Shown piece after piece: positions 15,922 through 22,058 of a DNA stretch of 28,882 nucleotides; within the stretch, counting starts at the first letter, position 1; each line of letters opens with the position of its first letter. Both the position numbers and the translations under genes were made by a program. The notes under the pieces are model-generated. The model saw only the letters and a program-made list of their open reading frames with translations. It made no database searches and was not told the origin of the DNA. This stretch comes from a virus, in IMG/VR virus record IMGVR_UViG_3300017756_000070, positions 1 through 28,882 of that record. The stretch is one strand, 5' to 3'.

Positions 15922-16368
15922 CTACCTCGCTACGTCAGGATTTTGTTCCTGACAATAATAGTTAATATTAAAGCTGAGTGTTGCAAAACCTACAGGCTTT
16001 TCACCTTCAGCGTTAAATTCTATTTCAGTTGACTCAAGAAAAGCATCTTTTGCCAAACCATTTATAGTAGTGTCTGCTGCTATTGCAGCTTCTACTTCTT
16101 TGCATATTGTATCAACTGAATCATCAAAATTGGTAGTTGCTTTTACATAACATTCTACTGCCACTGTAAGATTTCTTTCTAACAATCTATTACTACCAAT
16201 CACAACAGGTTCAGATTCTTCTGACTTTGTGTAAATTAATAAAGCAGGTAGATTACTATCTTCTAATTGATAAACCCTACTTTGAAATACATTACTTCCT
16301 GTTGTTGTTAAACCTGTAAGAGTAGTGCCAATCTGTTCTCTTATTTGTTGTCTTAAATGATTTGCCAC
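15922..16368 (-). CDS. Tail terminator (lambda gpU-like)
   Basis: This 148-residue protein begins with a helix (MANHLRQQIREQIGTTLTG), then strands with VYQLEDSNLPALLIYTKSEE, an amphipathic helix around DDSVDTICKEVEAAI and a final strand (FATLSFNINYYC). 'V-(Y/F)-x-x-x-x-x-x-x-LPA-(L/I)-x-(I/V)-Y-x-x-x-E' is the signature of minor tail protein U and related tail terminators. gpU caps the tail tube when its length is complete and joins it to the head. It follows the gpFII-like genes as in lambda (FII, Z, U), except that Z is missing from the interval. Confidence 0.82.
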   Translation of the reverse strand: MANHLRQQIREQIGTTLTGLTTTGSNVFQSRVYQLEDSNLPALLIYTKSEESEPVVIGSNRLLERNLTVAVECYVKATTNFDDSVDTICKEVEAAIAADTTINGLAKDAFLESTEIEFNAEGEKPVGFATLSFNINYYCQEQNPDVAR

Positions 16369-16721
16369 TATATTTCCTCTAACATAAAGCTACTGAAACC
16401 TGTTCTATCTGCTTGTACATTTACAATTGTATAATTTTTTGCAGCAACTATAGTATTGCCATCAGTATCTTTGATTGCACTTACAGCTAAAGTGTTACCG
16501 AATACTGCATTAGGTGCATCAACTGTACGACAATAGGCTACAGGTTTTGTGCCTTCTGTGCCTGTACCAAAATCAGTTTCAAAATATTCGTTATTGATTA
16601 TTATATTTATTGTTGATTGTTGACTTGAACTGTTTGTAAAAACAGCAGATACGCCATGTCCTGCAACACTATCAAAGTAACCTGCCATGTCTTCTTCTGT
16701 TTCCATTTGATAGATTGACAT
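16368..16721 (-). CDS. Head-tail attachment protein, gpFII-like (copy 2)
   Basis: The protein has 117 residues, the same length as lambda gpFII. It has an N-terminal helix (MAGYFDSVAGHG), then strands VSAVFTN, STINIIINNEYFET, an AYCRTVDAPNAV segment, GNTLAVSAI, and a C-terminal YTIVNVQADRTGFSSFMLEE. The pattern 'G-V-x-A-x-F-x-x-x-x-x-x-x-x-x-I-x-x-x-E-Y-F' and the V-x-x-D-x-T-G-F ending matches the gpFII fold, which joins heads to tails. It is clearly paralogous to the gene just upstream (VKNVQPDNTGFVELILEE ending). Which copy acts as the true connector cannot be told by sequence alone. Confidence 0.72.
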   Translation of the reverse strand: MSIYQMETEEDMAGYFDSVAGHGVSAVFTNSSSQQSTINIIINNEYFETDFGTGTEGTKPVAYCRTVDAPNAVFGNTLAVSAIKDTDGNTIVAAKNYTIVNVQADRTGFSSFMLEEI

Positions 16722-17125
16722 TATTGTTCCTCTAAAATTAATTCTACAAAACCTGTGTTATCAGGTTGTACGTTTTTTACTTTGAATATTGTTTCAGGTT
16801 TCAAGACTGAACCTTTGTTGGTTGTTATTGCATTGACTGTCAAAATATCATCATGCGATATATAAGGTACATCAGTTGCTTTGACTAAGGCTCTTGGTTG
16901 ATAACCAGCAACAGCAATAGAATCTCCTTGTATATCAAAATATTCTTGGTCAATTATAATGTCAATGTTAATTGAATCTCCCGAATCAATATCAAACCAT
17001 GTATCAATAAAGCCAACACGAGTATCCCAAAAAGAATTTTGTACTTCATTGAATACAGCAGTTACGCCAAACCCTGTTGTTGAATCAAGGTAAGCATTAA
17101 AATCTGCTGCACTTTCAATTGCCAT
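16721..17125 (-). CDS. Head-tail attachment protein, gpFII-like (copy 1)
   Basis: This 134-residue protein aligns along its whole length with the next gene: FNAYLDSTTGFGVTAVFNE against MAGYFDSVAGHGVSAVFTN, INIDIIIDQEYFDI against INIIINNEYFET, and KVKNVQPDNTGFVELILEE against TIVNVQADRTGFSSFMLEE. It carries an insertion of about 17 residues (VQNSFWDTRVGFIDTWFDID) after the first strand that copy 2 lacks. This pairing suggests tandem duplication followed by divergence into two connector-ring components. It begins with a TAATG overlap of the upstream gene and ends the same way. Confidence 0.72.
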   Translation of the reverse strand: MAIESAADFNAYLDSTTGFGVTAVFNEVQNSFWDTRVGFIDTWFDIDSGDSINIDIIIDQEYFDIQGDSIAVAGYQPRALVKATDVPYISHDDILTVNAITTNKGSVLKPETIFKVKNVQPDNTGFVELILEEQ

Positions 17126-17354: not shown

Positions 17355-17387
17355 AAAAGGCGGTAGACAAAATGCCTACCGCTTTTT
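17355..17387 (-). terminator. Hairpin terminator/attenuator after the capsid gene
   Basis: A perfect 7-bp GC-rich stem, GCGGTAG with CTACCGC (17360-17366 and 17376-17382), closes a nine-base loop. It is extended by A/T pairs and has CTTTT after it on the transcribed strand and TTTTT on the other. It starts 16 bases after the capsid stop codon. Such a hairpin would give extra capsid mRNA over downstream genes, or protect the 3' end of the processed capsid message. It is the strongest intrinsic-type hairpin I found. Confidence 0.72.
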
Positions 17388-17402: not shown

Positions 17403-19979
17403 TTAACTAGCTGTACAGAAAGATACCGCGTGTCTGACATTTACATCAAGACTTTGTAAAGCCACAACTCTTACAGTACCAGAAGTGCTGTTTGAGTAAG
17501 GGTCTACAACAATATCTAAGCCTGAGAACATACCTACTAATAAGTCTTGCATGTTACCGAAAACGTAATTGTTAGCAGTAAGTTGTGCAGAAACTACAAC
17601 AGGGTAACCATTAATCTCATTGTTAGCTAAAACAAATTGACCAGAACCACTGTCTTTAGTAGTTGTTTTCAAAGTACCTGCATTAGTTGGGTGTACGATG
17701 TATACAAGTCCACCTAATAGTGCATTATCAACAGCTACAGCAGATTCCATAGAAACCATTTCAGCAAAAGTTGGTGCAGCAGCACTACTTAAAGAAACAG
17801 TGTTTACGCCTGTAGTGTTAGTAATACCTGTAGGGTTACCACTTGAACCAGAACCTTCTAAAGCTGCATTATCAATTGCAATAGCCATTGAACCAGCTAA
17901 GTCATTTCTAATTAAGTTTTCAACATCTAAAGATGATTGAATCATTAATTGTCTAGTTACATCAGTGAAAGCACCTAAAGTTTTAGGACTCATAGTGACT
18001 GAACCAATAGTCATTTCTGATTCACCAGCAGCACCGCCTTCAGAAGAAATAAAAGCTGCTGTAGAAGCTGCTGTTTTCTTCGGAATTTTGACATCGCCAG
18101 ATAGACCATTAAGAATAGTTGCATTCTGCATAACAGCAGAAGAGTTTCTTAATACGTCAATGAAATCACCTGCTCTGAAGTCTTGACCAATAAGGTTAGA
18201 ATCATCAGATGCGTTCATGTCACGTTGACCCCAATTAGCAAGAACTTCTGGTGGTAATAAAACACCTTGTGCTGTTTTACCATATAGCTCACCTGCTGCT
18301 CTTGAACATTCAAATTCAAATGCTGCATCTTCTTGAGCCTTGCGGTCAGTAGGGTTAGCCATTGCATTAATGGCTCTTAAAATGCTAAATCTTTTGGTTT
18401 CTTTTTCAGTTAAACCGATTTCAGAAGGAGTTTCTAAAGGCTCGTCATTAGAAATATTTTCTAACAATACTCCTCTAAATTCTTCTACTGATAAACCATC
18501 GGAAATAGCTTGGTCAGCTAAATCTCTTTTGTTGTGTCTTGCAGCTAAGTCAAGAATCTCTTTTGAGTTTCTTTTAAACTCTGCTTTAGCTTCAACAACA
18601 GCATTAGATTTAACCTCGTCAAGATTTATTTCTTGTACTTCATTTTCCATTTTTTTTACCTCTTTATGTAAAATGTTTTGGTTATCTTTAGAACGACCTA
18701 CGCCAACTAATCTACTCTGGTCAGCAGGAACGCTTACAGAAGATACTTCCATAGGTGTCCAACTAGCACGATAATAAGTTTCATCGTCTTTGCCTGTACG
18801 TTCTAATTTATCTACTCTGTAGCCAACAGATATATTCATTCTTATACCGTCTACTACGTCACGAAAAACTTCATCAGCAAGTGAACTTCTTCCGAACCTC
18901 ACAACAGCAATTGTCCTTTTAGCTGTCTCATCAAGTTTAAATTCCTCGATTACACCAATTTGTTTAGTCATATCATGGTCTAACAATAATGGTGCTCGTC
19001 CACTAGAAATAAACTCCATGTTTACTTCACCAGCACGATGTCCTAGTACTTCCATACCAAAACTTCTCTCAACAGGTTCTTCTGATGATACGCCTATGCG
19101 GACTCTCCTATTTTCTTCATCGATTCCAGAATTACGCGATAAGTCAATCAATCTATATTCCATAGAACTATCAACCTTACGTTCTTCTTCATCTTCGTCA
19201 TGGTAAGAACTTTCGTCCATTTCCATATCCATTTCTTCCGACTCATCCTCAACTTTCTTAAATTCAATGATTACAGAATCATCTGTTTCAGAAAAATTAA
19301 GGATATGTCTATCTTCTTTGTTTTCAATATCCATGCTTTTTTCCTCTTTATCTTTGGATGACATTGGATGCCCTTCAGGCAATAAATCTGTGTCATGCTT
19401 TCCTGAACGAAAGCGACCATTACGCAAGGCATATAGAAAGGAATTTATCCTTGCTGCTGCCCATTGCTCAGGACTACTGACCGAAGGTCTTACAGAAGCT
19501 GGATTAGTCTTATAAGCACCAATCCCTCTTTCGTAAACTTTTGATAGTACACCGACTGTAGTTCTTTTTGACTTCACATCGCCTACTTCTTCATTATGTT
19601 CTTTTACTTTATTCTTAATCATTTCAAGAGCCTTGCCTGATACTGCTCTATTTTCTTCTTCCTTTTTCATTTTTTCTACTAATCTTCTAGACCAAGAATA
19701 ACCTGCATCACCACCCCATAGTGCCCATGCAATACGACCATTAGAAGGATAGCCATCTTCACCAGCACTAAATCCTTCAGCTTCTTTATCAACTTCATGT
19801 CTACTAAAAAAGCTAAACATTCTTTTGATAGTATCATCGGATAAATTTTCACCAGCAACTATTTGTCTTGCTCTAACAGCACCTACTCTTGTGCCACCAC
19901 GACCAAATTCTTCTCGCCATTCAAGACCTTTTTTTGCTTCAGCTTTCATTCCAGCATTAGGAATCGCCATCGTCATCAC
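17403..19979 (-). CDS. Fused prohead protease-major capsid protein with extra N-terminal domains
   Basis: This 858-codon gene holds four parts. Residues 11-105 contain GLEWREEFGRGGTRVGAVRA and FFSRHEVDK, and 138-205 contain VYERGIGAYKTNP, WAAARINSFLYALRNGRFRS and DLLPEGHP; both are modules common in phage head proteins and unassigned. Residues 270-430 are an S78/U35 prohead protease, with H335 (LLLDHD), S384 (MNISVGY) and E411 (WTPMEVSSVSVPAD). Residues 444-858 are an HK97-fold capsid with an N-terminal delta-like helical region and GVLLPPEVLANWGQRD, then VKIPKKTAASTAAFISSEGG. Internal Shine-Dalgarno/ATG pairs precede M216 and M444. The first codon is GTG; ATGs at 19976 and 19970 are likelier starts. 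The gene overlaps the portal gene by 23 bases. Confidence 0.9.
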   Translation of the reverse strand: MMTMAIPNAGMKAEAKKGLEWREEFGRGGTRVGAVRARQIVAGENLSDDTIKRMFSFFSRHEVDKEAEGFSAGEDGYPSNGRIAWALWGGDAGYSWSRRLVEKMKKEEENRAVSGKALEMIKNKVKEHNEEVGDVKSKRTTVGVLSKVYERGIGAYKTNPASVRPSVSSPEQWAAARINSFLYALRNGRFRSGKHDTDLLPEGHPMSSKDKEEKSMDIENKEDRHILNFSETDDSVIIEFKKVEDESEEMDMEMDESSYHDEDEEERKVDSSMEYRLIDLSRNSGIDEENRRVRIGVSSEEPVERSFGMEVLGHRAGEVNMEFISSGRAPLLLDHDMTKQIGVIEEFKLDETAKRTIAVVRFGRSSLADEVFRDVVDGIRMNISVGYRVDKLERTGKDDETYYRASWTPMEVSSVSVPADQSRLVGVGRSKDNQNILHKEVKKMENEVQEINLDEVKSNAVVEAKAEFKRNSKEILDLAARHNKRDLADQAISDGLSVEEFRGVLLENISNDEPLETPSEIGLTEKETKRFSILRAINAMANPTDRKAQEDAAFEFECSRAAGELYGKTAQGVLLPPEVLANWGQRDMNASDDSNLIGQDFRAGDFIDVLRNSSAVMQNATILNGLSGDVKIPKKTAASTAAFISSEGGAAGESEMTIGSVTMSPKTLGAFTDVTRQLMIQSSLDVENLIRNDLAGSMAIAIDNAALEGSGSSGNPTGITNTTGVNTVSLSSAAAPTFAEMVSMESAVAVDNALLGGLVYIVHPTNAGTLKTTTKDSGSGQFVLANNEINGYPVVVSAQLTANNYVFGNMQDLLVGMFSGLDIVVDPYSNSTSGTVRVVALQSLDVNVRHAVSFCTAS
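18648..18662 (-). promoter_or_regulatory. Internal ribosome-binding site and ATG before the capsid domain
   Basis: Inside the fusion gene, AAAGAGG lies exactly eight bases upstream of the ATG for Met444, which opens the capsid part (MENEVQEINL). The spacer is TAAAAAAA. The same GAGGTAAAA style of site precedes other genes of this phage (2390 and 15789). It would allow a separate 415-residue capsid precursor to be made in excess over the fusion. Confidence 0.65.
19332..19346 (-). promoter_or_regulatory. Internal ribosome-binding site and ATG before the protease domain
   Basis: AAAGAGG precedes the ATG for Met216 (MDIENKEDRHIL) by eight bases, with spacer AAAAAAGC. This lies between the DLLPEGHP module and the protease domain. 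A free protease-capsid product of 643 residues could start here. The same spacing as at Met444 argues for preserved gene starts at ancient junctions. Confidence 0.55.
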
Positions 19980-21441
19980 CGCCTTGTATGGTAGGTTCTA
20001 CAGGTAACTTAGTACCAAAAGGTTGGTAAGCTATTTCAATACCATATTGTTTAGCCAATTCAACTTCTTTTTGATGCTGTTCAAACAACTCTTCTGTATC
20101 TCTGCCATAAGCAGCAGATATATCTGAGTAAGTCATCGTACCATTTTGTAAACCTAAGACACTTGATTGCATTTCTTTTAGTGGGTCAATCCAAGAAAAA
20201 CTTCTTGGTATGTAATTTATAGAACGTGCAAATTTATCATATTTAGAAATAGGTAAATTTATGTAGCCACTAGATATAGCCATTTCTAACCATGATTTAA
20301 ATATTGGGTCAATAAAGTGTTCTATAACAAATTGTTGATGCAATTGAAACATTGACCTATCTTCTAATGCACCTTGTCTAATTGAAGAATAATTAACACT
20401 TGTTAAATCATTAGACAAAGCGTGATAAGAAATGTTCAAACCTGATGCAATACTTCTAAGTACTGATGTTGTAAAAGATTCAAATGCAGATGTTGGATGG
20501 TTTGGGTCAAAGGCTTTGAAGTCCATACCAGCAGGTAATTGTTCAAATGTACCTGCATTAGCATTAGTAACAGGATTGAATGTATCTTCCATGTCATCAT
20601 CACCCACATAGCCATCACCATCTTGACTAACAAAGAACCCCATCTTAGATGCACCAACCCTTGCTGCTACTATTTCAGCTTCTAAGTAACCATTGAGCAT
20701 TTTTACATTACTCATTGCAGTTGCAATTAAAGATACACCTCTTGTTTGTTCTGCTCTACTTGGTAAGTAAGCATGTATAATTTCATCTGCTGGTACTCTA
20801 ATGTATTCGTTTTGATTTACATAAGTCCTGTCGTAAGGATGATTTTTATATAAGTGATAGGCAACAGGCTTGTCATTAGCATCAACTTCAACACCCATTT
20901 TAATTCTATTGCCATTCTTTGCATTGTCATTTTTCTTTTCATCTAAATGGTCAGCTTCTAAAAATTGTATTTGAAAGCCAAAAGGACTGTTTGGATTTTT
21001 AATTTTTCTAATAAGAACTTCACCATCCCTTGCTAACGATTCAATAAATATTTTTTGACAATCTAAAAATGACATTCTGCCATTAGCTGTGCAATTACCT
21101 ATCTGTGTCCATTCTTTCCATGCTCTTTCAATTAATAAATTAGCACCTATATCTAATGATTGGTCATCGTTTCTTGCTTTAGCTGATATTCTTATACCAT
21201 GCTTACCAATAACATTAGAAACCATAAGATTTAAATATCTTGCAATATAAGAATCGTTTCTAGCTAATTCTCTTGCTCTATCTCTAAGCAATCTAATATT
21301 GTCTTTTACTTCTTGGTCAGCAGATGTAGATGAAGTTAGAAAGTCACCAAACAATCTACCTGTGTTTGCACCTTGATAACTTCTTTTGAAAGTTTGTTTC
21401 TTTTTAGGTTTTCTACCTATTATGTTGTCGTACCAAGCCAT
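19957..21441 (-). CDS. Portal protein (lambda family)
   Basis: This 494-residue protein forms the dodecameric ring at the head vertex through which DNA is packaged and ejected. Typical lambda-family portal stretches are visible: YQGANTGRLFGDFLTSSTSAD, RARELARNDSYIARYLNLMV, NVIGKHGIRI, FIESLARDGEVLIRKIKN, IQFLEADHLDEKKN and a LNISYHALSNDLTSVNYSSI stretch before a FKSWLEMAISSG segment. Its length is close to gpB of lambda (533). It starts with TAATG over the upstream stop, and its acidic C-terminus (GGDDDGDS) overlaps the protease-capsid fusion gene. The gene order, terminase, gpW-position protein, portal, protease/capsid, matches lambda. Confidence 0.93.
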   Translation of the reverse strand: MAWYDNIIGRKPKKKQTFKRSYQGANTGRLFGDFLTSSTSADQEVKDNIRLLRDRARELARNDSYIARYLNLMVSNVIGKHGIRISAKARNDDQSLDIGANLLIERAWKEWTQIGNCTANGRMSFLDCQKIFIESLARDGEVLIRKIKNPNSPFGFQIQFLEADHLDEKKNDNAKNGNRIKMGVEVDANDKPVAYHLYKNHPYDRTYVNQNEYIRVPADEIIHAYLPSRAEQTRGVSLIATAMSNVKMLNGYLEAEIVAARVGASKMGFFVSQDGDGYVGDDDMEDTFNPVTNANAGTFEQLPAGMDFKAFDPNHPTSAFESFTTSVLRSIASGLNISYHALSNDLTSVNYSSIRQGALEDRSMFQLHQQFVIEHFIDPIFKSWLEMAISSGYINLPISKYDKFARSINYIPRSFSWIDPLKEMQSSVLGLQNGTMTYSDISAAYGRDTEELFEQHQKEVELAKQYGIEIAYQPFGTKLPVEPTIQGGDDDGDS

Positions 21442-22058
21442 TATGTTAAATCTGTAGGGTTAAATGATTTTTGTGAACCAAATTTTACTTTGATTGTATT
21501 ACCTGAACCATGACCATTCTTAATTCTAGTCATCTTCACTTCTTTTAAATATTCTGCTTTATAAGTATTTCTAAACGTCATCAATTCATCTACAGACATT
21601 CTAGATAAAGAACGACCTGCGATACTCATAGATGATTGGTCAATTGTTGCTCTGTTTTCAATGACAGCTTCAATTGCATCTAAAACAACTTTCGCGTGAC
21701 TACGAACTGATGCAGTAGTTGTTGCATAGTTTTGTTGTATCTCTGTAAAACCTTCACCAATTTTTATTCTGGCATTATCAGATGACCTTTGTATGTAAGC
21801 TATCCAATTGTAATTACCAGCAGTGTATGAAGTGGTACTTGTTGTTGAGATAATGTATTCATCATTTGCTTCTGTTGCGGTCAAAGTAAAATTACTTGCA
21901 GTAGAACCATCTACTAAATTAAATTCATAAATCAACGCGTAAGCTGCTGTAGGATAATCAGTTGCAAGGTCTATTCTTTTCCATGCCCAAAAATCCCCCA
22001 ACTGTAATTCAGTAGGTTCTTTAGATGGAAAATTTGCAGAATCAAATAAGTTGCTCAA
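21441..22058 (-). CDS. gpW-position head-tail joining protein with an Ig-like N-terminal part
   Basis: This 205-residue protein lies exactly where lambda has gpW. The first part (about 20-110) is beta-rich (AYALIYEFNLVDGS, YIISTTSTTSYTAGNYNWIA) like a small immunoglobulin-type domain. The second part (about 120-180) is helical, ending with SLSRMSVDELMTFRNTYKAEYL. That helix-turn-helix stretch recalls gpW, which is mostly one small alpha/beta unit. Such an extended version is common in marine siphoviruses. It starts with TTG: GAGG at 22066-22069 lies seven bases upstream, and no ATG is available nearby. Confidence 0.65.
   Translation of the reverse strand: MSNLFDSANFPSKEPTELQLGDFWAWKRIDLATDYPTAAYALIYEFNLVDGSTASNFTLTATEANDEYIISTTSTTSYTAGNYNWIAYIQRSSDNARIKIGEGFTEIQQNYATTTASVRSHAKVVLDAIEAVIENRATIDQSSMSIAGRSLSRMSVDELMTFRNTYKAEYLKEVKMTRIKNGHGSGNTIKVKFGSQKSFNPTDLT

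Follow-up and report, generated by a model that had tools for sequence, protein, structure and literature searches.

The window, a stretch of 28,882 nucleotides of viral DNA (IMG/VR record IMGVR_UViG_3300017756_000070), contains on its minus strand, from 19979 to 17403, a single open reading frame of 858 codons without interruption, as an earlier note had claimed without naming the strand. This frame is very likely a composite head gene in which translation starts at three conserved sites, so that three nested products would be made, the capsid precursor in excess and the longer products co-assembling with it. The genes around it are lambda-like: those for terminase gpA, for a head-tail joining protein and for a lambda-family portal lie upstream, and those for head closure, the tail terminator and the tail lie downstream. 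The features of the gene are collected in Table 1.

Table 1. Domains, translation signals and predicted products of the composite head gene (positions are those of the window).
Feature	Positions	Strand	Residues	Remarks
Full-length product from ATG-4	17403..19970	-		855 aa, 93.6 kDa; modules A and B, protease, delta domain, capsid
Start candidate GTG-1	19979	-		Weaker than ATG-4
Shine-Dalgarno AAGGCGGTGAT before ATG-4 (19970)	19975..19985	-		-10.7 kcal/mol, near-perfect
Module A, helical, PHROG 2859	19650..19970	-	4-110	Swapped in relatives
Module B, DUF5824	19365..19622	-	~120-205	Pfam PF19141; retained where module A is swapped
Internal Shine-Dalgarno 1, AAAGAGG	19343..19349	-		8-nt spacer to ATG-216
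Internal start ATG-216	19332..19334	-		Predicted protease-capsid product, 643 aa, 70.0 kDa
Head-maturation protease domain	18696..19163	-	~273-428	PHROG 617, 4523, 80, 3244; T4 gp21 fold match
Internal Shine-Dalgarno 2, AAAGAGG	18659..18665	-		8-nt spacer to ATG-444
Internal start ATG-444	18648..18650	-		Predicted capsid precursor, 415 aa, 43.8 kDa
Delta-domain-like region	18204..18650	-	444-592	Presumed removed on maturation
HK97-fold capsid domain	17406..18203	-	593-858	PF05065, E-value 1.1e-39; PDB 8gta, E-value 6e-43

All 858 codons are open, but translation probably does not begin at the GTG (19979). The ATG at codon 4 is preferred, because it is preceded by the near-perfect Shine-Dalgarno (SD) sequence AAGGCGGTGAT and because pairing to the anti-SD is strong at this column in all 11 of the 11 representative relatives that have a methionine there. 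In the same neighbourhood, the head-tail joining gene (21441-22058, minus strand) is listed with a TTG start and has a clear SD sequence upstream (TGTGAGGTTATTGC-TTG). Each of two consecutive small genes at 16368-17125 (minus strand) has a match to the lambda FII-like head-closure family (PF05354 / PHROG 82), and the pair may have arisen by tandem duplication. A terminator-like hairpin (17360-17382, minus strand) is located right after the capsid gene, within the 5' part of the next gene, and may set the level of capsid mRNA above that of the downstream genes; in phages Mica and Mano, too, a terminator is annotated directly after the capsid gene.

The charge of the product is split, residues 4-215 being basic (pI 9.5) and the remainder of the fusion acidic. 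The accessory amino-terminal modules that had been proposed are indeed present and number two, module A and module B; a PDB fold search with these modules gave no significant match. The carboxy-terminal part is homologous to HK97-fold major capsid proteins, including gp5 of HK97 itself (E-value 1.7e-4). The mature capsid chain of R4C (PDB entry 8gta) aligns to the fusion only from residue 596, and the delta-domain-like region is therefore presumed to be removed, consistent with the loss of an amino-terminal delta domain on maturation. Residues 270-856 match the fused protease-capsid family PHROG 617 as a single open reading frame, with an E-value of 5e-141.

The protease had been called S78-type, an assignment that holds in part. 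The curated Pfam S78 model PF04586 does not match it at an E-value limit of 1, and a Pfam search with residues 216-443 returned no significant protease name. On the other hand, the PHROG head-maturation protease families 80 and 3244 match with E-values of about 1e-6, the best fold match in the PDB is gp21 of T4 (probability 1.00, E-value 0.018), and many predicted prohead proteases match in a fold search of BFVD. His335 and Ser384, which do not vary across 39 sequences, are candidate catalytic residues of what, from these fold matches, would be a prohead protease.

The AAAGAGG motifs lie exactly eight nucleotides before the codons for Met216 and Met444, as the earlier note had stated. When the gene was recoded synonymously, with the protein fixed and the codon usage of the gene kept, two such AAAGAGG-8-ATG sites also arose in 69 of 3000 recodings (2.3%); the window alone is therefore insufficient for a claim of internal starts. 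Single-sequence evidence is modest, and it is the comparison with relatives that carries the claim. The signal at Met444, AAAGAGGTAAAA, is also used as the SD sequence of the major tail protein gene of this phage (-7.2 kcal/mol). Around the Met216 and Met444 starts, the mRNA has less structure than is average for the gene (+1.3 standard deviations). In an AlphaFold2 model of modest overall quality (pLDDT 64), Met216 is located in a low-confidence linker between the helical amino-terminal part and the beta-structured protease, and Met444 follows the protease; both linkers are presumably disordered.

An alignment was made of 80 viral contigs and seven cultured phages, with statistics calculated on 22 representatives of less than 85% identity. 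Anti-SD pairing energies were computed against the 16S tail and compared with 2000 draws of synonymous recoding. The mean energies are -8.1 (Met4), -6.9 (Met216) and -5.5 kcal/mol (Met444), against -2.2 kcal/mol at 496 other ATGs, a comparison set that includes the Met4 column. The corresponding z values are -9.4, -8.1 and -9.5, with none of the 2000 recodings as strong at any of the three positions; as the aligned sequences share ancestry, these z values overstate the independent evidence. No anti-SD excess is present at 14 other methionine columns, so that of all positions tested only Met4, Met216 and Met444 stand out. These control columns and the changes of register described below are the arguments least affected by shared ancestry.

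Methionine is present at position 444 in 22 of the 22 representatives and at position 216 in 17 of the 17 marine ones, while the surrounding linker residues vary. All aligned relatives have ATG at Met444, and nearly all except the cyanophages have a purine-rich SD sequence before it. This sequence occurs in differing codon registers (AAAGAGGT, AAGGAGATT, AAGGAGAAC, AAAGGAGTG and TTGGAGGAT), so that the peptides encoded over it range from KEVKK-M, NEVRE-M, TKVEI-M and HKQVRN-M to KEIK-M, SKENT-M, QRSDP-M and LEDVT-M. Because the motif is kept in different registers (KEV, KEI, SKEN, QRSD), it is the nucleotides and not the amino acids that are conserved. Over the Met216 SD sequence, the peptides of the marine group are KEEKS, KEDKS, NKEKA and NDEVKS. 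The glutamate codon at position -4 from Met216 is GAG in 15 of 15 cases, compared with 218 of 1329 glutamate codons (16%) overall. The Met216 column reads GAGGGCCGCACC-ATG in CRP-821, AGAGGATCAGGAA-ATG in S-CBS3 and AAAGGAACGAATAAA-ATG in CRP-406, and GAGGATCAGACC-ATG in CRP-811, where the assignment is uncertain. On the evidence of the alignment, the internal SD sequences are under selection at the nucleotide level. Conserved in-frame internal SD sequences with their start codons, which characterize a nested in-frame head gene, are thus found here, and the comparison strongly supports the proposal of preserved internal gene starts leading to nested products with a common carboxy-terminus. The earlier note had counted homologues without the GAGG/ATG pairs as evidence against this proposal; most homologues keep the pairs, while the cyanophage-type genes lack the Met444 SD sequence and in a few others it is weak.

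In the amino-terminal part of four relatives (L040, L071, L076 and L084), another module takes the place of module A while module B is retained, and both internal starts survive this replacement upstream of them. A further domain is inserted in the amino-terminal part of L010 (4010-5035) and L084 (3206-4333); it ends in YYYCVNHxGMGxKI, and the L084 copy matches tail-fibre and virion families. In Salinibacter phages, this alternative module and module B precede a likely prohead protease and the capsid protein is encoded by a separate gene. An example is Salinibacter phage 15_1 (L261:3110-7109), where related modules are fused to a likely S78 protease. Matches to the module were found in 183 Salinibacter phage records. 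The recurrent linkage of modules and protease hints that the modules act during head assembly or inside the head, a function that is a guess.

A wider collection comprised 258 loci with the capsid core; 223 of them count as fused, the criterion being an open frame that reaches 230 residues or more upstream of the core. Reading frames were taken from the first ATG that follows a stop, which at several loci is upstream of the likely start, and those coordinates serve for alignment only. An SD sequence with ATG is present in the linker between protease and capsid of VP882 (AGAGGTGCAGAA-ATG), RcRhea (AAAGAGGAAACCGCT-ATG), phiHAP-1, ECO1230-10 and R4C, as well as of PPpW-3, Persinger, Arya and PT1. 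It is weaker in Mica, Mano and Alexa, doubtful in FoX2 and MQ-4, and weak in several further contigs. The cyanophages S-CBS3 (L006), S-CBS1 (L007) and S-LBS1 (L008) have the ATG corresponding to ATG-444 with no SD sequence there, although they use SD sequences at other genes. Among 85 representatives outside the marine clade, the anti-SD excess of the linker has a z value of -3.5, a level reached by no other tested protein stretch; the effect is moderate, with 56% against 40% expected at -5 kcal/mol. One of the pattern scans used HKEVKKME, which is able to favour the Met444 motif; later capsid-only patterns gave an effect in the same direction. By this survey, the capsid start is widespread, not universal, among fused genes, and the Met216-type start is limited to genes with amino-terminal modules before the protease; elsewhere the gene begins there. 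Compared with CRP-821, CRP-823 has one T more (L004:3709), which separates the modules from the protease-capsid part and leaves the SD-ATG of the downstream reading frame intact. Either this T is a sequencing error or the nested product is naturally separate in this phage. At L207:2294-4350, protease and capsid are in different frames near the linker, which may be a sequencing error, and the capsid ATG with GAAGGAAGG upstream is intact.

In unfused relatives, the candidate start of the capsid gene mostly lies 69-81 residues before the conserved core, at several loci at -75 with an SD sequence, and Met444, at -77, is near this position. The idea that three ancestral genes lost their stops therefore fits the capsid part, with unfused starts about 75 residues before the core; the amino-terminal part looks instead like shuffled modules. 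The protease model found no S78-like protease adjoining nearly all the unfused capsid genes, so a simple fusion of adjacent genes is unsupported for them.

Initiation at ATG-4 would give the full 94-kDa fusion, initiation at ATG-216 a 70-kDa protease-capsid protein without the amino-terminal modules, and initiation at ATG-444 an ordinary HK97-type precursor of 44 kDa (delta plus shell domain), in excess. The two longer products would co-assemble through their capsid parts, bringing a minority of protease, with or without the modules, into the prohead, where the protease would then cut off the delta domain and itself. Ribosome use of the internal starts, the relative amounts of the products and their co-assembly are what we infer here, and much capsid with few proteases is a reasonable inference from internal initiation. 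Computed pairing is strongest at Met4 (-10.7) of the three starts, so SD strength alone does not predict an excess of capsid; such an excess would have to be due to translation coupling or to something else about the start regions. It is improbable that the full fusion is the only product, a single polyprotein cleaving itself at the junctions with protease and capsid at 1:1 and the SD-like motifs incidental. The fusion does contain its own protease, and cyanophages retain the fusion without the Met444 SD sequence; the presence of only the mature capsid part in the R4C virion suits a polyprotein and is compatible with internal initiation as well. Such a polyprotein would, however, put hundreds of proteases and modules into every shell, and it leaves unexplained the conserved SD spacing, the register shifts and the invariant methionine at both junctions, as well as the match to the gene starts of unfused relatives.

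It is a general proposal that internal SD-like motifs slow ribosomes, and both motifs here are at domain boundaries. That they act at the linkers to let the domains fold stepwise, and are not start sites, is nevertheless highly improbable: pausing requires no ATG, yet the methionine is invariant at a fixed distance, the mRNA there lacks structure, as it does at starts, and the third signal, which equals these two, belongs to the true gene start. A capsid message from an internal promoter, replacing internal initiation on one mRNA, is decidedly unlikely as well. One promoter-like match of 9/12 is present on the coding strand just past Met216 (19327-19300), but promoter-like sites are no commoner than in shuffles (6 versus 7.6), so the scan leaves the explanation unsupported. 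Such a capsid message would still need the Met444 SD sequence, and a promoter would supplement internal initiation rather than replace it.

The nested layout proposed here resembles that of C and Nu3 of phage lambda, where translation starts a second time, in frame, inside a protease gene and yields a shorter product that shares its carboxy-terminus with the longer one; in lambda, the nested product is a scaffold, the capsid protein has a separate gene and the protease family is different. The packaging genes next to the fusion in the window are also lambda-like. In HK97, a delta-domain capsid precursor (gp5) and a prohead protease (gp4) are encoded by separate genes. The tripartite capsid gene of Gifsy-2 combines a ClpP-type protease, a middle domain and an HK97-type capsid in one open reading frame; its sequence has GAGGAG nine nucleotides before an ATG at residue 221, close to where the protease part ends, and no A or B modules. 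The window protein lacks such a ClpP-type amino-terminal protease, its protease being of the S78/gp21 head-maturation type.

The PHROG 617-type fusions (VP882, phiHAP-1, ECO1230-10 and R4C) contain the same protease-capsid fusion, homologous over residues ~270-856, and most have an SD sequence with ATG in the linker, as here. They are without amino-terminal modules, hence without a Met216-type site, the gene starting at the protease, and their annotation names a single 'major head protein'. The paper on the R4C structure presents the mature capsid and says nothing in its text about a protease or cleavage (PMC10276861); the papers searched on R4C and its relatives make no mention of an internal start. 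The nearest cultured relatives are the CRP-822-type roseophages of pelagic Roseobacter. Four of these (CRP-811, CRP-821, CRP-823 and CRP-406) share this gene order and have module A, module B or both in fusion with the protease-capsid part and, as here, an SD sequence with ATG at the capsid junction; the gene is annotated simply as major capsid protein, and the paper on these phages mentions neither protease nor fusion (PMC12629253). A literature search, with most subscription papers outside its scope, found no earlier report of internal starts in protease-capsid fusions.

Fusions of protease and capsid are of a known kind, as are the capsid family and head genes nested in frame. Judged by the comparison of relatives, the conserved double internal starts combined with swappable amino-terminal modules are a new arrangement that annotation has missed. 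We lean slightly towards the view that fused protease-capsid genes of tailed phages are mostly multi-start, a single mRNA yielding capsid precursor in bulk from an internal start together with a few protease-containing chains, with SD strength setting the protease dose per head. The modules, found upstream of the protease in unrelated phages too, are candidate new head-interior proteins. The fusion is present in many phage and prophage records, with one product annotated; if internal initiation is true, the capsid precursor and its amino-terminus are misannotated in those records. A fused protease would then enter the head on its own capsid domain, with a copy number set by the strength of its start site, which would be a simple genetic answer to the need for few proteases and many shell subunits per head.
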